Assembly (NCBI RefSeq): GCF_021032705.1
Contig: NZ_JAHVXI010000001.1
Span: forward strand, 372,001 to 436,000
Origin: Psychroserpens luteolus
GTDB lineage: Bacteria; Bacteroidota; Bacteroidia; Flavobacteriales; Flavobacteriaceae
DNA length: 64,000 nt
Reading direction: 5' to 3'
Position 1 is the stretch's first letter. The number at the start of each line of letters is the position of its first letter. The position numbers and the translations under genes are program-made. The notes beneath the pieces are model-generated. The model was not told the DNA's origin and did no database searches. It was given only the letters and a program-made list of their open reading frames with translations. Shown one piece after another: positions 9,096-39,012 of the stretch.

Positions 9096-9866
9096 TTATT
9101 TAATCGTTAACTTCTTAGTAATAGAATTACGTTCTGAAGAAATAGTCACTAAATACAATCCTGATGTCAATACCGAACTAAAGTCTAAATCTTTATCAGT
9201 TGTAATGCCTTCTAAATTTTGGGTCAAAATTGTACGACCGTTCAAGTCGGTTACCACTACTTTCTCTAAAGCAACACCCGAATTTTTAATCGTAATTTTT
9301 CCGTCTGAAGGATTTGGAAAAATATCGATACTTTGTTCTAAAGACACATCCTCTGTGCTTAGCGTATCAAGAATTTCCACATTAATATTATGGAATCCAA
9401 AGTCGTTTAAATCATCTGTATCCGTAGGATTGATTTTAATCTGTGTAATACTTAATGCATTTGCAGCATTAGTAATGGTCAATGTTCCTGCACCTAAAGG
9501 ATAAGCCGTAGGGCTAGAGATGACTTCATCATCTTGATTGGTTACTGAAATTGTACCAGCTCCTAAGGTATCATAGTCAATACTATTCAAGTTAAAGTTA
9601 GTAGGCATTCCATTTTTGGTAATGCTCAATCTGTGTGGTGTAAGAGGATCAATGGCACTAAGAAAGAACACAAGGTCTCCACCTCCTAAATTGTCTAACT
9701 CCTCATTTCCTGAGTGATCAACAGTCAACACATAAGTATCTGGGCCGCTTACAATTGTTTCGGTAATTGTAGTGCCATTATCAGTCGCAGTATCAATAGT
9801 AAAGTTTAAATTTTGCGCAGTGCAAAACGATGAAATCAATAAGGTTAAAATGTAAAGTTTTCTCAT
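9096..9866 (-). CDS. Secreted protein with type IX secretion (type A) sorting domain, copy 1
   Basis: This protein of about 256 residues has a signal peptide (MRKLYILTLLISSFCTAQ) and a beta-rich, Asp/Thr/Gly-rich body. The C-terminal type A sorting domain has the motif IFPNPSDGKITIKN near residue 182 and the ending GLYLVTISSERNSITKKLTIK. It should cross the outer membrane by the type IX system, with the sorting domain removed on export. The body matches no enzyme family that I recognise. The ATG at 9866 is used because the 15 upstream codons precede the signal peptide. It is a tandem paralogue of the next gene upstream (10753-9941). Confidence 0.88.
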   Translation of the reverse strand: MRKLYILTLLISSFCTAQNLNFTIDTATDNGTTITETIVSGPDTYVLTVDHSGNEELDNLGGGDLVFFLSAIDPLTPHRLSITKNGMPTNFNLNSIDYDTLGAGTISVTNQDDEVISSPTAYPLGAGTLTITNAANALSITQIKINPTDTDDLNDFGFHNINVEILDTLSTEDVSLEQSIDIFPNPSDGKITIKNSGVALEKVVVTDLNGRTILTQNLEGITTDKDLDFSSVLTSGLYLVTISSERNSITKKLTIK

Positions 9867-9940
9867 AATATAAGTGTTTAATAAAATAGATTTGGAAGCT
9901 AAAGATAACATAATAAATCATCTAGCTTCCAATTATAAGG

Positions 9941-10753
9941 TCATTTAATAATTATTTTTTTTACTGCCGAACCCTTCTCAGAAGAGATTGTAATTAAGTA
10001 TAATCCTGCTGATAATTCTGAACTCATTTCAAGATTATGGTCGCCAATAACTCCGTTTAGATTTTGAGTAACAATTGTTCGTCCGTTTAAATCTGAAACA
10101 ACTACTTTTTCTAGAGCAATTGTCGAATTCTTTAAGGTGATGTCTCCATTTGACGGATTTGGAAAAATGGTAACATGATTTTCTAATAATGTACTTTCAT
10201 CTACGCCAAGCGTATCTAGAATGTCAATATTAATGTTATGAAATCCAAAATCATTGAGATCATCTGTGTCTGTAGGAAAGATTCTAATTTCTGTAATATC
10301 AAAACCATTTGTTGGATTTGATATAAATAACGATCCAGCTCCTAAAGGATAAAATGTAGGACTCGAAATGACTTCGTCATCTTGATTTCGTACAGAAATT
10401 GTACCAGCACCAAGTGTGTCGTAATCAATACTATTGAGCTTAAAATTAATAAGATTCCCATTTTTAGTGATTTTTAAACTATGAGGTGTAAGTGGGTCTA
10501 TTGCACTTAGGAAAAATACAAGGTCGCCTCCTCCTAAATTATCAAGTTCCTCATTTCCTGAATGCGCAACGGTTAAAACATAGGTATCTGATCCATTAAC
10601 AATAGTTTCGGTAATATCGGTGCCATTATCAACAGCTGTATCGATTGTAAAATTTAGATTTTGGGCTACACTACTAAAGCTTAAAAACAGCGAAAAACAC
10701 CAAACCATGGTGTTCAATAGTGATTTCTTTGAATAAGTGTAGTTTGTTTTCAT
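9941..10753 (-). CDS. Secreted protein with type IX secretion (type A) sorting domain, copy 2
   Basis: This 270-residue protein has a signal peptide that ends near SSVAQ and a body highly similar to its downstream neighbour. They share QNLNFTIDTA, LGGGDLVFFLSAIDPLTPH, NSIDYDTLGAGTISV and DTDDLNDFGFHNIN. The C-terminal sorting domain starts at IFPNPSNGDITLKN. The two genes are separated by 74 bases and point the same way, so they arose by tandem duplication and may be co-expressed with the tail-collar gene upstream. No catalytic motif is visible. A structural, adhesive or surface-layer role is a guess only. Confidence 0.88.
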   Translation of the reverse strand: MKTNYTYSKKSLLNTMVWCFSLFLSFSSVAQNLNFTIDTAVDNGTDITETIVNGSDTYVLTVAHSGNEELDNLGGGDLVFFLSAIDPLTPHSLKITKNGNLINFKLNSIDYDTLGAGTISVRNQDDEVISSPTFYPLGAGSLFISNPTNGFDITEIRIFPTDTDDLNDFGFHNINIDILDTLGVDESTLLENHVTIFPNPSNGDITLKNSTIALEKVVVSDLNGRTIVTQNLNGVIGDHNLEMSSELSAGLYLITISSEKGSAVKKIIIK

Positions 10754-31800: not shown

Positions 31801-33984
31801 TTAAAACTTCAACGTCACTCCTAACAAAAAGTTAGTTGTAGCCTGTGGATAGAATCCAGCAAAATAGCCTGTTGTAGTTCCTGTTGGACTTGAAGCATCA
31901 TCAAAATCAAATGACCCAAAATAGCCATTAGACACATACTTTTCGTTAAATATATTATTAACCAATCCTGAAAACACAACTGATTTGAACATTGATTTTG
32001 GCTTCCATTGGTAAGTCACATTAAGATCATTAACGAAATAACTATCTAATTTAGAATCGCGATTTTCGGTATTTCCCATAAACTGTTCCCCAACATATTT
32101 ACTTAATAATGCCATTTGAAAGCCTTCTTTTGGCTGAAATACAAAAGCATTGGCAGCAACCAATTCTGGAGAAAATGAAATATCTGTTTTACCAAGATCT
32201 AATAAGACACCATTTACAGATTCAAATGTTTCCCTATTTTTATTAGAACTGATCGTAAAGTTTGGTTGTACCGAAAATTGATTAGTAATTGCAATGGCTG
32301 CATCTACTTCTAAACCTAATCGATAACTATCACCATTATTTGCTCTAATTGGATCTCCAGTCGTATCAATTTGACCTGTTAAGACTAGTTGCTCATTATA
32401 TAACATGTAGTAGGCATTTACATTCAATCTAAACTTCTGCTCGTTATGTCTCCAACCCAATTCGAAATCGTTAAGTTGTTCTGGTTTTACGGTTGCATTA
32501 TTCTCAAAATCACTTCGGTTTGGTTCTCGATTTGCTCTGGCATATGAAAAATACAAACTATTATTTCCGTTAACTTTATACGTAATTCCTGCTTTTGGGT
32601 TAAAGAAACTATAGCTCTCATCAATATTAAACGGAATTCTATCTGAAGTTAATCCCGAAGTCTCATAACCTACCAAACGCAATTGTAAATCACCATACAA
32701 ACTTACCTTATCATTCACACGATATGTCGCTTTGGTAAATAAACTCCAATCTGTTTTTTGACCGTTTCCTTCATAATAGCGATCTCTTATTTCACTATCA
32801 CTTGCAAATTCTGCCCAGATGATTTCACCAAAATGGTCGCCGTCATAAAAGCTATATGAACTTCCGAAGATCAAATTCACTTCATTGTTTTTGTAATTAG
32901 CACTAGCATTTAATACATAGAAATCATTATCCAACCAACGACGTCTAATTAAATCTGTTGTGTTAACCGTTTCACTTCCTATCTCTAATGGCGTTAAATC
33001 ATAATCTGAAAAATCTTCATCTTCTCTATATTGTTCAAAGTAGCCTCGTCCATAGGTATAATTTAATCCAATATTTGTAGACCATCTGTTGTTATAACGT
33101 TGATTCCAATGCAACTGATAATGATCCTGATTGTAGTTGTCAACTTCATTATCATAGAAGCGCGTGTTACCATCGACATCTGTATACATGCCTGAAGGAT
33201 TAAAGGTTCTATTATTTGCTAAAGTTTCAGCGTCAATACCATTCCACGCCTGATAAGTCACTTCCTTACCACCAAACATAATAGCTTTAATCAATGTATT
33301 ATCATCAACATATGAGCCTTGTAAAAAGTACGATTTCAAATCGGTCTCTGCTCTATCGATATAACCATCAGACGAAATATTTGATAAACGGCCAGCAATT
33401 TCAATATGATCATTAAGTAAGCCTGTACTAAATTTTACAGTATGTTTTCTAGTATTAAAACTTCCAAAGGAATTAGAAATTTCTCCATTAGATTCTGTAG
33501 ACACAGCATCGGTTAATACATTGATACTAGCACCAAACGCTCCAGAACCATTGGTTGATGTTCCAACACCGCGCTGTAATTGCAAACTTTCTACAGACGA
33601 TGCAAAGTCTCCTAAGTTGACCCAAAATGTTCCTAAAGATTCAGCATCATTGTATGGGATTCCATTGATAGTGACATTGGTGGATTGCGCATTAATACCA
33701 CGCACTCTAATTCCTGTATAACCTACTCCTGCACCAGCATCTGTTGTGGTCACTACTGAAGGAAGATAGTTTAAAAGTACTGGAATATCTTGTCCTAAAT
33801 TGCGTTTTGCCAATTCCTTTTTGGTCACATTGCTATGTGTAATTGGCGATGTAGCTTCTACTCTTACGGCTTTAACGAGGACTTCATCAAGCTTTTCTGT
33901 TTTGGTAGAATCTTGTTGCTTTTCTTGTGCATAAGTACTGACTGATAACACAAGAAGTGTTAAAAAAAGAAAAATGTTTTTCAT
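31801..33984 (-). CDS. TonB-dependent receptor under a TPP riboswitch, predicted thiamine importer
   Basis: This 727-residue outer-membrane receptor has a signal peptide (residues 1-19) and a plug domain from about residue 45, with TGIRVRGINAQSTNVTINGIPYNDAES and QRGVGTSTNGSGAFGASINV. The 22-strand barrel ends ATTNFLLGVTLKF. It imports a ligand into the periplasm using TonB energy. General homology would suggest a siderophore or vitamin. The TPP riboswitch directly upstream indicates thiamine or a derivative as the ligand, like the TPP-regulated receptors (OMR1) described in Bacteroidota. No carboxypeptidase-like N-terminal domain or SusD partner is present. Confidence 0.9.
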   Translation of the reverse strand: MKNIFLFLTLLVLSVSTYAQEKQQDSTKTEKLDEVLVKAVRVEATSPITHSNVTKKELAKRNLGQDIPVLLNYLPSVVTTTDAGAGVGYTGIRVRGINAQSTNVTINGIPYNDAESLGTFWVNLGDFASSVESLQLQRGVGTSTNGSGAFGASINVLTDAVSTESNGEISNSFGSFNTRKHTVKFSTGLLNDHIEIAGRLSNISSDGYIDRAETDLKSYFLQGSYVDDNTLIKAIMFGGKEVTYQAWNGIDAETLANNRTFNPSGMYTDVDGNTRFYDNEVDNYNQDHYQLHWNQRYNNRWSTNIGLNYTYGRGYFEQYREDEDFSDYDLTPLEIGSETVNTTDLIRRRWLDNDFYVLNASANYKNNEVNLIFGSSYSFYDGDHFGEIIWAEFASDSEIRDRYYEGNGQKTDWSLFTKATYRVNDKVSLYGDLQLRLVGYETSGLTSDRIPFNIDESYSFFNPKAGITYKVNGNNSLYFSYARANREPNRSDFENNATVKPEQLNDFELGWRHNEQKFRLNVNAYYMLYNEQLVLTGQIDTTGDPIRANNGDSYRLGLEVDAAIAITNQFSVQPNFTISSNKNRETFESVNGVLLDLGKTDISFSPELVAANAFVFQPKEGFQMALLSKYVGEQFMGNTENRDSKLDSYFVNDLNVTYQWKPKSMFKSVVFSGLVNNIFNEKYVSNGYFGSFDFDDASSPTGTTTGYFAGFYPQATTNFLLGVTLKF

Positions 33985-34078
33985 ACGACTATACGTAAAT
34001 AATCGAATAAAAAGAGGTAATTATTCTTTAGCGTTAATAATTAATAAAAATTGTGAACATTAATATAAGTTTGATTAG

Positions 34079-34133
34079 AAAAATGCTAGAAGCATTTTTT
34101 TGCACCCACTAAAAATGTCCAGTGGACATTTTT
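34079..34133 (-). promoter_or_regulatory. Two-hairpin expression platform of the TPP riboswitch
   Basis: Two U-tailed hairpins follow the aptamer on the minus strand. The first has arms 34133-34124 and 34120-34111 (AAAAATGTCC/GGACATTTTT, 3-base loop). The second has arms 34099-34091 and 34087-34079 (AAAAATGCT/AGCATTTTT, 3-base loop). Both would stop transcription before the receptor gene, so control is most likely by premature termination, possibly in two steps. Confidence 0.7.
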
Positions 34134-34137
34134 TTAA

Positions 34138-34222
34138 CGTTCGCTTCCTAAACAGCATTACCTGTTCTAGGTTCAATGGGTATGATCTCAGCCGATAATA
34201 GGCACCCCTTTTTTGAGAACGC
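34138..34222 (-). promoter_or_regulatory. TPP riboswitch aptamer (THI element)
   Basis: On the minus strand the conserved THI-box parts occur in order: GGGGTGCC, CTGAGATCATACCC, ACCTAGAACAGGTAATGC and a closing GAAGCGAACG. GAACG pairs with CGTTC at the 5' side as P1. These are the pyrimidine-sensing and pyrophosphate-sensing cores of the TPP aptamer. Binding of thiamine pyrophosphate would favour the terminators at 34079-34133 and shut off the TonB-dependent receptor gene. Confidence 0.93.
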
Positions 34223-34224
34223 TG

Positions 34225-34232
34225 CAAAGATA
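34225..34232 (-). promoter_or_regulatory. -7 box of the riboswitch-controlled receptor gene
   Basis: The minus strand reads TATCTTTG, a perfect -7 match that ends just before the aptamer begins. The receptor therefore has its own promoter, separate from the arfB transcript upstream. Confidence 0.65.
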
Positions 34233-34277
34233 AAGTAGATTTATCATTTGCACATCAATAATTTTTGATTTTTTTAA

Positions 34278-34685
34278 TCAATCGATTTCTGGTGGTTTTC
34301 GATTGGCTTTTTTTTCTGAGTTTCTACGCTTATTAGTGAGTCGTTTTTTTACAACTGCCTTAGGTATTTTAGTAGGAATCCGTTCTTTGTCTTCAATCAA
34401 GTTAACCTTTAATAATCCTAAAAACCGTTGAATGATAATGGCTTTATTTCGAAACTGACTTCTGCTTTCACTACATTGCATGATGAGTACACCTTCTTTT
34501 GTCAATCTTGTTTGGAGATTTGTTTTGAGCAACTCTTTTTGCTCTGAAGTAAGGACTTGAGAATGTTCTAAATCAAAGGTCAGCTCTACTTTAGAAGCTG
34601 TTTTATTAACATGTTGTCCTCCAGATCCAGAACTTCTAATTGCTTTAAAAGTTAATTCATTTAATATGGTTTGCTCATCAAACAT
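34278..34685 (-). CDS. arfB: Alternative ribosome-rescue factor ArfB (peptidyl-tRNA hydrolase)
   Basis: This 135-residue protein has the release-factor-like catalytic motif GGQ at residues 22-24 within SSGSGGQHVNKTASKVEL and a basic C-terminal tail (KKRLTNKRRNSEKKANRKPP) that would enter the empty mRNA channel of stalled ribosomes. Size and tail match ArfB/YaeJ rather than a full release factor. It follows the DUF4301 gene with one base between the two genes, so they are co-transcribed. Confidence 0.93.
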   Translation of the reverse strand: MFDEQTILNELTFKAIRSSGSGGQHVNKTASKVELTFDLEHSQVLTSEQKELLKTNLQTRLTKEGVLIMQCSESRSQFRNKAIIIQRFLGLLKVNLIEDKERIPTKIPKAVVKKRLTNKRRNSEKKANRKPPEID

Positions 34686-34686
34686 G

Positions 34687-36243
34687 TTATTTGATTTGAT
34701 GTGGAGCCTTAAGCAAGTCGTTTACTGTTTTAACTGGATTGAAGGTAATTAATGGTACTTCGATAAAAATAGTATTCCAGTTGGCCATACTGCCATTCCA
34801 TAATCCAGGAAGTTCTAATGCTTTAAGATCTTTTCCTGTTTTAGTCTTCATTGAAATAAAAGCCGCTTTGGGATCTACAAACTTTCTAAGGTCAAACTTT
34901 TCGCCTCTATGATTTTTAACACCACAAACTAAGTCTACAGGGTTAAAATGTGTAGCCCCTTTTAAAATATCTTTCTGGTGCCTACTCTTTTTATTGATTT
35001 GAGCAGACTCCACAATTTGAAGGGAGGTATTTCCACTTTCGTCTTTTATCCAATACGGACCGCCTCCAGGTTCACCTTCATTTTTAACCATGCCACAAAC
35101 ACGAATTGGACGGTTTAATTTTTCAGCTAAATATTCGATTTGATACTTACGAGAATACTTTTCAAACTCCGAACTTATTCTGACATTCAATTTATTAGCC
35201 AAAAACTCAGCAACCTCAATAAGCAATTCTTCTGAAAGGTTGTCATTGTCAAGAACATCTAAGTATTTAAATGCTTGTTCTTGAATTTCAATAAGCATTC
35301 CAGCCAGTACTTTTTTGTACTTAGCCACTTCTGTTTTGTATTTATAGGTGACCACATTATCGATGTTTTTTATAAAAATAATATCGGCATCAAGGTCATT
35401 TAAATTCTCAATTAGTGCTCCATGTCCTGAAGGTCTAAATAGTAAAGATCCGTTCTCATTTCTAAAAGGCTTATTTTTTGGCGTAACAGCAATAGTATCT
35501 GTAGATTCCTTTTGATATGAAAATGAAATATCAAATTTGGAACCTGTTTTATCTTCTACTTTCTTTTCAATTCTGGCGAACTCCTCATCAAATTTATGAT
35601 TATGCTTTTCTGAAATAGTGAAATGCAATTTTGTTGGTTCATCGCTTGATGAATACAATGCAGATTCGTACAAATGCTCTTCAAAAGCAGTTGATATAAC
35701 TTGATTTTTATATTCATGAAAAGGTAATAGTCCTTTTGGAAAGTTTCCATAGTCTAATTTGTCACTATCTAGCATCATTTGAACAAATTTAAATCCTTGT
35801 TCGTCTATGGATAACTCATCAAAATTAGGGTTCTCTTCTTTAAGCCTAGCTCTAACAATATTATAAAAAGGAAACTTTTCTAAGCCCACAAAAAAGATAG
35901 ATAAGTCTTTATTTTTATTGGTGTTTATATACGAATTAATACTTTTCTTTTTAAAATCGTATTTATCCAAAAATGGATATAAGAACTTAAACATTCTAGT
36001 GGCTGCGCCAGATGCTGGAACAAATTTTAAAATAGAAATAGCATCTTTTTTTGCTTCAAAGCGAAAGATTAAACGTGTGTTTTCTTCATTAGATAATCTT
36101 AAAATCCCATTATCTATTGTTGCTTCAGAAACTAAGTTAGAAAAAGGTATTCCATTTTCAAAAAGTCTAATTTGCTGTTCAACTTTTTGTACTGTTAATC
36201 CTTTACTTTCTATTTGTTGTATATCTTTTTTAGAAAAATTCAA
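34687..36243 (-). CDS. DUF4301 family protein
   Basis: This 518-residue cytoplasmic protein has no signal peptide or membrane helix. Residues around 75-90 read FVPASGAATRMFKFLYPF, a glycine-rich segment that resembles a nucleotidyltransferase-type SGxxTRM loop. RPSGHGALIENLNDLDADIIFIKNIDN near residue 268 and VCGMVKNEGEPGGGPYW near residue 385 are typical of DUF4301. The fold may be related to UDP-sugar pyrophosphorylases, judged from the SGxxTRM and GHGA motifs, but the substrate is unknown. It overlaps the NadR-like kinase gene by 4 bases and so belongs to the thiamine-linked operon. Confidence 0.85.
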   Translation of the reverse strand: MNFSKKDIQQIESKGLTVQKVEQQIRLFENGIPFSNLVSEATIDNGILRLSNEENTRLIFRFEAKKDAISILKFVPASGAATRMFKFLYPFLDKYDFKKKSINSYINTNKNKDLSIFFVGLEKFPFYNIVRARLKEENPNFDELSIDEQGFKFVQMMLDSDKLDYGNFPKGLLPFHEYKNQVISTAFEEHLYESALYSSSDEPTKLHFTISEKHNHKFDEEFARIEKKVEDKTGSKFDISFSYQKESTDTIAVTPKNKPFRNENGSLLFRPSGHGALIENLNDLDADIIFIKNIDNVVTYKYKTEVAKYKKVLAGMLIEIQEQAFKYLDVLDNDNLSEELLIEVAEFLANKLNVRISSEFEKYSRKYQIEYLAEKLNRPIRVCGMVKNEGEPGGGPYWIKDESGNTSLQIVESAQINKKSRHQKDILKGATHFNPVDLVCGVKNHRGEKFDLRKFVDPKAAFISMKTKTGKDLKALELPGLWNGSMANWNTIFIEVPLITFNPVKTVNDLLKAPHQIK

Positions 36244-36815
36244 TCGGCTTTTTTTAAAAGTTCATCAATATGGGTTTTACAATAATTCAATCGTTCTTCA
36301 AACCCTCCTTTTACCACAATGTAAGGTTTTTTAGATGCTATTAACGCTTGTTCAAAGCGATTAAATTGCTGCAATCTGTTGTGTGGTTGGTCACGAATTC
36401 CATCAGCTTCCCACACCGTGTCAATATAAGTCAAAAAATACAAATCATAAGTATTTTCAAAAGCATATTTTTTGACTAATTCTGGACAAAACCCATGGTA
36501 ATAAAATTGAGAATACACTTGAGTTTCTAACAAATCGGTATCACAAATTAAAAGTCGGTTTGCTTTCTTTAATTGCTCATTTTCTAATTGCATTTGTCCT
36601 ATAGCAATGGGCAAAACGTCATCTTTAGTCAATTCATGGTTATCTAATGCCTTAGCTTCTGCATAGCTACGTGAGAATTCTTCGACATAAACTGTATCGT
36701 AGTAATTGGCCAACTCTTTTACCAGAGACGATTTTCCTGTAGACTCTGGTCCATATAAAACAACTTTTATACAGTTTGAGTTAATGTCACCGATTTGTTT
36801 AAGCTTTTCCTCCAT
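36240..36815 (-). CDS. NadR-type P-loop kinase next to the PnuC/PnuT-type transporter
   Basis: This 191-residue ATPase has Walker A GPESTGKSS (residues about 22-30), EEFSRSYAEAK, CDTDLLETQVYSQFYYG-like and DGIRDQPHNRLQQF motifs, which match the ribosylnicotinamide kinase domain of NadR. The nucleotidyltransferase half of NadR is absent. It overlaps the transporter gene by 49 bases and DUF4301 by 4. With a PnuC-type carrier it would trap the imported compound by phosphorylation. The ligand may be nicotinamide riboside, the classic case, or thiamine, as the neighbours on both sides suggest. I cannot decide between these from sequence. Confidence 0.8.
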   Translation of the reverse strand: MEEKLKQIGDINSNCIKVVLYGPESTGKSSLVKELANYYDTVYVEEFSRSYAEAKALDNHELTKDDVLPIAIGQMQLENEQLKKANRLLICDTDLLETQVYSQFYYHGFCPELVKKYAFENTYDLYFLTYIDTVWEADGIRDQPHNRLQQFNRFEQALIASKKPYIVVKGGFEERLNYCKTHIDELLKKAD

Positions 36816-37408
36816 GCTAAGTAGCCAAAAATGGCAATAAAAGTAAATCCAAAATATTGTAGGCTTGTAAAGGTAAACCCTTTATAGAAATATAATGGTA
36901 CGGAAATAATGTCGCCAATGATCCAAAATATCCAGTTTTCTAATTTACGCCTTGCCATAAGCCACATACCAACAAAAAATATAGCTGTTGTAACAGTATC
37001 AACATAAGCGACCCAACTCGTCCATTTATCAAAAGTTTTATAAACGATAAAAACAAATGCTAAAGTTGCAATAAAAATGAAGGTACTAATCTTTTTTTCT
37101 TTAGGCGTTGTTCGTGTAATTGGAGTTACGTGCATTTCATCAACTTTTCGAGTCCAAATGTACCAACCATAAACACTCATAATAAAATAATAAGCATTGA
37201 TCATCATGTCTCCAAGTAATTCCCATTTCACCAATAAATAAACAAAAATTGCAGTACTTATCATACCCGTTGGGAATACCCAAATTTTGTTTTGTTTTGA
37301 AAACCAAACCGACAGAAAACCAAAAACAACAGCAGTAGCTTCTAATACAACATCAATAGTAGAATACGTACTATATTGACCAAAAAAAAACTCAAAAATG
37401 TGGTTCAT
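36767..37408 (-). CDS. PnuC/PnuT-family vitamin transporter
   Basis: This 213-residue inner-membrane protein has seven hydrophobic helices and the PnuC signature region ISTAIFVYLLVKWELLGDMMINAYYFIMSVYGWYIW (residues about 50-85), plus NWIFWIIGDIISVPLYFYKG. Family members carry nicotinamide riboside (PnuC), riboflavin (PnuX) or thiamine (PnuT) by facilitated diffusion coupled to phosphorylation. The adjacent thiamine-binding-domain gene, which overlaps by 17 bases, and the TPP-controlled receptor downstream favour thiamine. Automatic annotation would probably call it a nicotinamide riboside transporter. Confidence 0.87.
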   Translation of the reverse strand: MNHIFEFFFGQYSTYSTIDVVLEATAVVFGFLSVWFSKQNKIWVFPTGMISTAIFVYLLVKWELLGDMMINAYYFIMSVYGWYIWTRKVDEMHVTPITRTTPKEKKISTFIFIATLAFVFIVYKTFDKWTSWVAYVDTVTTAIFFVGMWLMARRKLENWIFWIIGDIISVPLYFYKGFTFTSLQYFGFTFIAIFGYLAWRKSLNKSVTLTQTV

Positions 37409-37652
37409 AGTTGTGTCGATCAGATTTTACGATTTTCATATGTAAGAGTCCATTTTCAATAAGCTCGAAAGCTTCTTTTATTTCTGAAGTAAGCAAGGCC
37501 ATCACCTCATCATAGTTTCCATAAACTTGTGTACTCAAAGGGTTTTCAAGTACCTTAAAATTTGAAGCACGTAATTTTTTTATAAAATGAATGATGGCAG
37601 GTTCATAGTCATCATGTAATGGCGTTAAGGTTAACTCTACTGAAATATTCAC
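37392..37652 (-). CDS. Thiamine-binding-domain protein (MTH1187/YkoF-like), GTG start
   Basis: This 86-residue single-domain protein begins NISVELTLTPLHDDYEPAIIHFIKKLRAS. It has the ferredoxin-like beta-alpha-beta pattern of the MTH1187/YqgV and YkoF fold (PF01910), whose YkoF members bind thiamine or its pyrimidine moiety. No signal peptide is present, so it acts in the cytoplasm. The only suitable start is GTG at 37652, 7 bases after the stop of the preceding gene. It overlaps the transporter gene by 17 bases, which supports a joint role in thiamine uptake or salvage. Confidence 0.75.
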   Translation of the reverse strand: MNISVELTLTPLHDDYEPAIIHFIKKLRASNFKVLENPLSTQVYGNYDEVMALLTSEIKEAFELIENGLLHMKIVKSDRHNYEPHF

Positions 37653-37659
37653 GTACGTA

Positions 37660-38385
37660 TTATTTTTTTAATTCATCAAAAAAGGAGACATCATCTTCAA
37701 AAGCTGTTCCTATAACTACGATATCAGCTCCATTAGTATAAGCGGTTTCTAATTGATGTTGACTTCGTATACCACCACCAACAATAAGTGGAATCTTTAA
37801 TTCTTGTTTCACAAAACTAATAATTTCGGCTGGCACGGGATGCAGAGCACCACTTCCAGCTTCAAGGTATATAAGTTTCATCCCAAGAAGTTCTCCAGCT
37901 TTAGCTGTATCAACAATGTCTTGAACATTAAGTCTGGGTATAGGCTTCGTTTTTGTGACCTTCTCAACTGCTGTTTCTTTACCATTTTCAATGAGTACAT
38001 AACCCGTAGGAATTACTTCTAAATTAGAGCCTTTCAACTTTGAAACAGCCCGAATATGCTTCCCTATAAGATACTCTGGATTATTACCAGAAATCAATGA
38101 TAAAAATAAAACAGCGTCGGCACGATTTGTCAATTGCGTCACATCACCAGGAAATAAAACGATAGGTAAATTAGTATATGTTTTAATTTCTGTCACTAAA
38201 ATTTCAGTAGCATGATCATCAACTATACTTCCACCAACAAAGATCAAATTGGCCTTACTCTTATTGAGTTTTTTCATGAAATCAGATAAGCCTTCAGACT
38301 TCATTTTGTCTGGATCTATAAGTACCGCTAATCCTTTTTTGCCTTCGGAAATAGAATTCAATATGTTACTATAAACTGTCTTCAT
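37660..38385 (-). CDS. Geranylgeranylglyceryl/heptaprenylglyceryl phosphate synthase
   Basis: This 241-residue TIM-barrel prenyltransferase makes an ether bond between sn-glycerol-1-phosphate and a polyprenyl diphosphate. The motifs LIDPDKM near residue 22, FVGGSIVDDH, VLFPGDVTQLTNRADAVLFLSLISG, YLEAGSGALHPV and IVGGGIRS match the PcrB/GGGPS family; Bacteroidota enzymes of this type have been described as group II GGGPS. Its product would be an archaeal-like ether lipid precursor of unclear use in bacteria. It directly follows the phosphopantetheinyl transferase gene. Confidence 0.92.
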   Translation of the reverse strand: MKTVYSNILNSISEGKKGLAVLIDPDKMKSEGLSDFMKKLNKSKANLIFVGGSIVDDHATEILVTEIKTYTNLPIVLFPGDVTQLTNRADAVLFLSLISGNNPEYLIGKHIRAVSKLKGSNLEVIPTGYVLIENGKETAVEKVTKTKPIPRLNVQDIVDTAKAGELLGMKLIYLEAGSGALHPVPAEIISFVKQELKIPLIVGGGIRSQHQLETAYTNGADIVVIGTAFEDDVSFFDELKK

Positions 38386-39012
38386 TTAAGTGGTCACAAA
38401 AGCACAAGTAAATCCTTCAAACTCTAAAAACTCTGTGTTATATCTATATTTCTTGTTCATATAATCTATCCATGCTACAGTTTTCCCATCTTGTAACATA
38501 AATGGAATCACTAAAAAATGCTCTCTAAACAACATGCCTGGCGTCGCAAATAATTTGTAAAGTGATTCTTTAATTCCCCAAATAACTGTGAGTTTTTTTA
38601 TGTAAGTGTCGTCATCTTTGGAAAGATATTTAAATTCATAATCCACAAACTTCTTGGCAATGATTGCAATTTTTTCTCGTTGTTTTTCAATATCGATTCC
38701 TACTTCATTATCACTAATAATCACTCCTGAAAATATAAATGAATGGGTAATGGATATGTGTTTCCCATCTTTTAAATGCGGTTTTCCGTAGTCATCATAA
38801 TACAGGTCTTGATCTGTATAACCAAAATCTCTAAGTAAATGCCGAACACTTAGAAATCCGCGTTGGTGCAGCTCGCTTTTCATTCCTAAAACACGCTCTA
38901 AGCTATTTGATTTTAAATCTAAAGGTTTAAATAAGTCCTCATAAGACTCTGTAATCTTCCAGATTTTAACAGTAGTTTGTGAGTTTGGTTGGATAGTTTT
39001 ATAAAGTGGCAT
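38386..39012 (-). CDS. 4'-phosphopantetheinyl transferase superfamily protein
   Basis: This 208-residue Sfp-type enzyme transfers phosphopantetheine from CoA to carrier proteins. The two metal-binding motifs are visible: VGIDIEKQREKIA (residues about 103-115) and WGIKESLYKLFATPGM (about 144-160). KPHLKDGKHISITHSFIFSGV supplies the CoA-binding region. It is longer than AcpS and of the Sfp size class. It is the first gene of a minus-strand run that continues to the GGGP synthase and the thiamine-linked genes. The carrier protein served is not known. Confidence 0.92.
   Translation of the reverse strand: MPLYKTIQPNSQTTVKIWKITESYEDLFKPLDLKSNSLERVLGMKSELHQRGFLSVRHLLRDFGYTDQDLYYDDYGKPHLKDGKHISITHSFIFSGVIISDNEVGIDIEKQREKIAIIAKKFVDYEFKYLSKDDDTYIKKLTVIWGIKESLYKLFATPGMLFREHFLVIPFMLQDGKTVAWIDYMNKKYRYNTEFLEFEGFTCAFVTT

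Follow-up and report, generated by a model that had tools for sequence, protein, structure and literature searches.

A NadR-type kinase as the probable thiamine kinase of an uptake locus in Psychroserpens luteolus and other Bacteroidia

In Escherichia coli, ThiK (YcfN) converts thiamine to thiamine monophosphate (TMP), on which ThiL then acts. In Shewanella woodyi, PnuT is reportedly a thiamine facilitator of the PnuC family, and the imported vitamin is said to be trapped through phosphorylation by a pyrophosphokinase. In Bacteroides, a thiamine cluster has been described in which the receptor OMR1 (or OMthi) and PnuT stand with Tnr3, a thiamine pyrophosphokinase (TPK) (accessible part of PMC5613172), and the accessible part of a human-gut reconstruction gives only ThiL/ThiN for the thiamine phosphorylation step (PMC6593275). 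The kinase domain of NadR makes nicotinamide mononucleotide (NMN) by transfer of a single phosphate, and resembles thymidylate kinase (accessible part of PMC7221760). Here, we analyze a locus of Psychroserpens luteolus (Flavobacteriaceae), contained in a stretch of 64,000 nucleotides (positions 372,001 to 436,000 of contig NZ_JAHVXI010000001.1; hereafter the window), that carries a thiamine pyrophosphate (TPP) riboswitch aptamer, a TonB-dependent receptor, a PnuC-family carrier, and a NadR-type P-loop kinase. With a probability of roughly 0.8, we read it as the uptake-and-trap system of a thiamine auxotroph, in which a NadR-derived thiamine kinase would form TMP for completion by ThiL. The basis is gene content, gene order, and phylogenetic profile. 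A thiamine kinase of the NadR type is not proposed in the open-licence literature searched, which leaves out most subscription journals, and an earlier mention is possible.

As far as the accessible description of the Bacteroides cluster goes, the locus shares with it a kinase gene that immediately follows the gene of a PnuT-family carrier, as well as the TPP riboswitch and the TonB receptor. It differs in that the kinase is of another family than TPK and would need ThiL, in that the riboswitch comes after the carrier and the kinase, and in having an extra Thiamine_BP gene. With NadR the kinase shares a homologous kinase domain and an adjacent PnuC-family carrier; it is set apart from NadR by the lack of an adenylyltransferase domain, by the thiamine context, and by four sites of the kinase (Y51, E78, K99, which is Q in the window, and P144). 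The proposed reaction, thiamine to TMP and then ThiL, is the one of ThiK; the two enzymes belong to different superfamilies, the kinase of the window giving only P-loop families in a Pfam scan. As with PnuT of S. woodyi, the carrier would be a PnuC-family thiamine facilitator, whereas the trapping enzyme there is reportedly a pyrophosphokinase.

The genome of P. luteolus (3.84 Mb, 99.95% complete) encodes ThiL (325.6 bits) elsewhere than at the locus. TPK, ThiC, and ThiE have no match in it, the search not having included YjbQ, ThiD, ThiM, TenA, and ThiK; in 14 control genomes, the same searches matched TPK in 7, ThiC in 13, ThiE in 11, and ThiL in all 14 (9 over the cut-off). Because ThiC, ThiE, and TPK are without a match, the organism would need thiamine and is a probable auxotroph, and none of its recognized enzymes is predicted to make TMP or TPP from thiamine. 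YjbQ can replace ThiE (accessible part of PMC5613172). The genome search suggested by an earlier, sequence-only reading of the window found ThiL and no match for TPK.

In a sample of the class, most genomes lacking ThiC have the kinase or TPK, and none has both. The sample comprised 237 Bacteroidia genomes, at least 90% complete, scored for the kinase, TPK, ThiC, and ThiE. ThiC is missing from 164 of them, of which 120 carry the kinase, 36 TPK, and 8 neither (Fisher test, 7.7e-29), and the 152 that lack both ThiC and ThiE divide into 111 with the kinase, 35 with TPK, and 6 with neither. The 73 genomes with ThiC include 8 with the kinase, 11 with TPK (4 of these having both), and 58 with neither. 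The pattern persists when genomes are collapsed to families to allow for relatedness: the 45 families with ThiC-less genomes include 29 with only the kinase, 12 with only TPK, 4 with neither, and none with both (Fisher test, 6.3e-8). ThiL is kept in nearly all the TPK-bearing genomes of this sample that lack ThiC and ThiE. Divergent or split matches were counted as kinases (G339, G307, G169, G127, G217, and G146; G and L numbers designate genomes and loci), for a total of 128 of 136 genomes; weak matches (G253, G262, G266, G292, G330, and G147; E from 1e-4 to 1e-3) and genomes with only a true NadR (G213 and G332) were not. Short and long kinases were told apart by frame length unless the locus was read. 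ThiE was counted in the 84 genomes reaching 91 bits and not in all 120 with E ≤ 0.001, the weaker matches resembling TenI. The labels Bacteroidia and Flavobacteriaceae were given to the sampled genomes from their named relatives. Within Flavobacteriaceae (120 genomes from 119 genera), the kinase is found in 115 genomes and TPK in 8; the genomes without the kinase either carry TPK (G002, G016, and G100) or have a TPP riboswitch preceding thiC (G020 and G079; PF01964, 615 and 624 bits). Hence, the kinase is most likely a nonorthologous substitute for TPK in many Bacteroidia.

The kinase gene is also tied to thiamine elements by position. Of the 115 Flavobacteriaceae kinases, 86 have a TPP match no more than 12 kb away, in all 86 cases downstream and on the same strand, and in seven of the remaining 29 that were viewed over a wider region (G061, G029, G068, G080, G042, G039, and G105), a TPP core is found downstream by pattern in every one. 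In other families, 24 loci were sampled, and 18 of them have a PnuC-family carrier next to the kinase. The 80 named loci that matched best in one scan (Pontibacter, Hymenobacter, Pedobacter, Chitinophaga, Bacteroidales, Chlorobiota-labeled bins, and others) contain the carrier in 60 cases, directly before the kinase in 51, a Thiamine_BP relative in 20, Bacteroidales and Chlorobiota-labeled bins included, and a TPP core in 23 (24 pattern matches, against 1.4 in shuffles); 13 of the 14 TPP-core loci run on Rfam reach the cut-off. TPK can stand in the same place: the order receptor-PnuT-TPK is found in 4 of the 14 TPK loci examined (L222, which was checked by Pfam, L235, L237, and L238), as in the Bacteroides cluster (PMC5613172). 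In the TPK-bearing genome G100, the locus (L228) keeps PnuT, DUF4301, ArfB, the TPP core, and the receptor, and the kinase alone is gone, with 376 bases between PnuT and DUF4301 and the TPK gene elsewhere in the genome.

In G002, which carries TPK, no carrier, kinase, DUF4301, or ArfB is recognized at the locus (L225); the space from GGGP synthase to the TPP riboswitch contains an unrecognized frame of 216 aa (9485-10135). In G079 (L223), the TPP riboswitch that comes after ArfB and DUF4301 has thiC behind it and not a receptor.

One alternative is the salvage of nicotinamide riboside (NR), with PnuC importing NR, the kinase making NMN, and the TPP-regulated receptor being a chance neighbor. 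The best-scoring named families of the two proteins are indeed NadR and PnuC, and so are the closest solved structures by sequence (for the kinase profile, NadR with E 1.3e-29; for the carrier, PnuC 4qtn). The names in the source annotation of close relatives agree, the carrier being called "nicotinamide riboside transporter PnuC" and the kinase "AAA family ATPase", "ATP-binding protein", or "NadR type", as the sequence-only reading had anticipated. The kinase has the P-loop ribosylnicotinamide kinase domain (PF13521) and shares the catalytic residues. However, it matches only the kinase half of the NCBIfam model TIGR01526 (positions 165-324 of 325; 112.7 bits for a cut-off of 341), and the NMN adenylyltransferase domain with its HxGH motif is absent from the 191-aa protein. 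Eight relatives with HxGH, that is, true bifunctional NadR, were found in the sampled genomes, and the five of them run on NCBIfam match TIGR01526 over its full length, yet under the cut-off. PnuC is adjacent in 7 of these 8 loci, whereas a TPP core (by pattern) or a Thiamine_BP gene is found in none, to be compared with the TPP linkage of 86 of 115 short kinases. Three genomes (G264, G310, and G133) own a true PnuC-NadR pair besides the short kinase, and it is with ThiC loss and TPK absence that the presence of the kinase goes in the 237 genomes. NR salvage is thus improbable as an explanation of the locus. In three loci with a PnuC-NadR pair (L109, L113, and L114), a TonB receptor lies upstream of the pair and scores low against thiamine-type receptors; these are perhaps nicotinamide riboside receptors.

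The phylogenetic tree of the kinases places the eight HxGH proteins outside the short kinases, with a support of 80/80 that is not strong. The two groups also differ at four sites: Y51 is found in 117 of 126 short kinases versus 1 of 8 NadR, E78 in 114 versus 2, K99 in 110 versus 1, and P144 in 113 versus 1 (L085, where the pattern finds no P-loop, was left out of the count). Two long frames (L112/G267 and L120/G343) were read and are nonetheless without adenylyltransferase domain. The AlphaFold model of the window kinase has a pLDDT (predicted local distance difference test) of 92.5.

The sequence-only reading had put a NadR-like kinase in the TPK position. As a functional substitute this is supported, but identity with TPK was rejected, the protein having no match to the TPK catalytic domain (PF04263), and TMP is the likelier product since ThiL is present. 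A P-loop enzyme could also transfer pyrophosphate directly to thiamine, making ThiL dispensable for salvage, and the replacement of TPK by the kinase both in the phylogenetic profile and in the locus would fit such a pyrophosphokinase. This, too, is unlikely: the NadR kinase domain is thymidylate kinase-like and transfers a single phosphate (accessible part of PMC7221760), which fits TMP as the product, and ThiL is there to finish TPP. In a third reading, the kinase might act on another thiamine-related alcohol imported by the carrier, hydroxyethylthiazole or hydroxymethylpyrimidine (HMP), as the YkoF-like partner, of a family linked to thiamine/HMP binding, might suggest, but this is very improbable, the usual joining enzyme ThiE having no match in the genome (YjbQ was not searched for).

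The carrier is a member of the PnuC family (PF04973). In a tree of carriers, the one of the window groups with all four TPK-locus carriers (support 89/94), and this group holds 37 of the 62 kinase-locus carriers. Six of the seven NadR-locus carriers form one separate clade, the seventh being found among kinase-locus carriers. The tree included 20 hand-listed named loci of the 60 with a carrier, and left out carriers at or below 40 bits and the distant L087. The 86-aa protein encoded upstream of the carrier is under the PF01910 cut-off (22.6 for 24.9 bits), and 17 of the 23 proteins of its alignment match PF01910 at E ≤ 0.01. The profile of this alignment matches the solved structures of YkoF 1s7h (E 1.3e-3), 2ibo (E 4.7e-5), and 2eky (E 7.4e-5). 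Its probable ligand is thiamine or the pyrimidine part of thiamine.

The aptamer scores 38.2 bits, below the gathering score of RF00059 (54.3), and a default Rfam scan of the whole window listed no TPP match. Its E-value is 5.1e-6 in a scan of 501 bases and 9.2e-6 in the whole genome, which has no further TPP match at E ≤ 0.001. The conserved core (GGGGTGC, CTGAGA, ACCC, and GAACCT) is present and aligned to positions 1-105 of the 105 of the model, relatives are alike, and 111 of the 120 Flavobacteriaceae genomes have a TPP match. The aptamer announced by the sequence-only reading is present; its coordinates are those of Table 1 and not 34138-34222. The receptor, with TonB plug and barrel, is the first gene behind this aptamer, in the same order as in relatives, and by context it is a thiamine receptor of the OMR1/OMthi type; the riboswitch itself is below the Rfam cut-off. 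A hairpin ending in a T run may serve as terminator arm in the expression platform (the folded region, 34080-34240, has a z of -2.40, and 4 of 200 shuffles are equally stable). The motif TAnnTTTG, which we take to be the -7 promoter element of Bacteroidota, lies 12-16 nt ahead of the aptamer GGGGTGC in all 21 loci with the full core pattern among the 30 supplied (shuffle mean 0.54). The receptor mRNA thus probably starts at the aptamer. Because the aptamer is downstream of the carrier and the kinase and directly follows a promoter-like element, its control should extend to the receptor alone and leave out the two upstream genes. Riboswitch control of the carrier and the kinase was considered and rejected, as the 86 linked aptamers are downstream of the kinase and the promoter-like element is at the aptamer.

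Several observations weigh against the thiamine kinase. The carrier and kinase genes are not behind the riboswitch. The catalytic core is common to the short kinases and NadR, and because of this a side activity as NR kinase is possible. In the 24 loci of other families, a TonB receptor within 4 kb downstream is found in 12 and a TPP core in 6, 57 of the 80 best-matching named loci have no TPP core within the 5 kb or less available on each side, and the carrier group that includes the TPK-locus carriers leaves out 25 of the 62 kinase-locus carriers. The eight ThiC-less genomes with neither enzyme have to be added, as do the genomes in which kinase and TPK coexist (4 in the class sample, all of one genus, and 5 of the 120 Flavobacteriaceae) and the five genes outside the genome search. 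ThiL is over the cut-off in 231 of the 237 genomes, those with TPK included; the use of its presence as proof of a thiamine kinase is weakened by this near universality. Finally, in a Baltic metatranscriptome, Bacteroidetes are among those expressing genes for the synthesis of thiazole and B1 (accessible part of PMC12442306).

All the parts named in the sequence-only reading, and ArfB, were found on the minus strand (Table 1). In the direction of transcription, phosphopantetheinyl transferase and GGGP synthase come first, and the small Thiamine_BP-like protein (86 aa), the carrier, the kinase, DUF4301, ArfB, the aptamer, and finally the receptor follow. Gene overlaps are confirmed between the 86-aa protein and the carrier, the carrier and the kinase, and the kinase and DUF4301. 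The kinase has its closest named relatives in Psychroserpens (95% identity).

Table 1. Features of the thiamine locus, in window coordinates and in order of transcription
Feature	Position	Strand	Evidence
Phosphopantetheinyl transferase	38386-39012	minus	
GGGP synthase	37660-38385	minus	
86-aa Thiamine_BP/YkoF-like protein	37392-37652	minus	PF01910 22.6 bits, under cut-off 24.9
PnuC-family carrier, proposed thiamine carrier PnuT	36767-37408	minus	PF04973 183 bits
NadR-type P-loop kinase, proposed thiamine kinase	36240-36815	minus	PF13521 (AAA_28) 129.5 bits; 191 aa
DUF4301 protein	34687-36243	minus	PF14134 734 bits
ArfB, ribosome-rescue hydrolase	34278-34685	minus	NF006718 117.5 bits, cut-off 100
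TATCTTTG, promoter-like -7 element	34225-34232	minus	match to TAnnTTTG, 16 nt before aptamer GGGGTGC
TPP riboswitch aptamer, short form without optional P3a arm	34128-34219	minus	RF00059 38.2 bits
Hairpin ending in T run	34111-34133	minus	RNA fold; overlaps 3′ tail of aptamer
TonB-dependent receptor	31801-33984	minus	PF00593 95.4 bits, PF07715 43.7 bits; first gene past aptamer

DUF4301 had been named as part of the thiamine cluster. Neither DUF4301 nor ArfB is beside the kinase in any of the 24 loci sampled from other families, and for this reason they are probably not core parts of the function. The kinase and DUF4301 share a single reading frame in four Flavobacteriaceae, namely Flavobacterium turcicum (L192) and those of L115, L116, and L131. 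In Hymenobacter, it is to an aldose 1-epimerase tail that the kinase is fused (L173), with kinase frames of 478-497 aa in three of the five named loci of this genus (L173, L180, and L185); G174 (L242), counted as kinase by frame length, has an epimerase-like tail resembling that of L173, and L112 has, by eye, an acetyltransferase-like tail. Since the kinase fuses to such unlike partners, the fusions seem to be side effects of the order in which the genes lie, and the DUF4301 fusion was rejected as a sign of joint function. By eye, the DUF4301 motifs PASGAATRMFK, RPSGHGALIENL, and FIKNIDN recall nucleotidyltransferases of the UDP-sugar pyrophosphorylase type, and the DUF4301 profile has no match among solved structures. 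A nucleotidyltransferase activity of DUF4301 on the thiamine phosphate that the kinase would form is a bolder reading and an improbable one.

The import of thiamine with trapping by a kinase, as first suggested from the sequence, is supported by the pathway hole and by the association of the kinase with TPP, receptor, and PnuT loci, whereas none of the eight true NadR loci has a TPP core. In the proposed mechanism, thiamine would cross the outer membrane through the TonB receptor, whose production the riboswitch would lower when TPP is plentiful, as the family and position of the riboswitch suggest. It would then pass the inner membrane by facilitated diffusion through the PnuT-type carrier and be phosphorylated by the NadR-type kinase to TMP, which could not leave the cell and which ThiL would complete to TPP. 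We infer the substrate, the product, and the direction of riboswitch control. More generally, it is quite probable that the NadR kinase domain gave rise to a class of thiamine kinases through which vitamin B1 mainly enters metabolism in most thiamine-auxotrophic Bacteroidia.

Thiamine auxotrophy is common in coastal bacteria, reaching as many as 78% of the taxa of one fjord according to the accessible part of the source. If the reading is true, it would account for the lack of TPK in most of the sampled ThiC-less Bacteroidia (128 of 164). It would also correct two common names, PnuC and NadR, in a recognizable gene context, and the kinase gene could be used as a genomic marker of B1 dependence.

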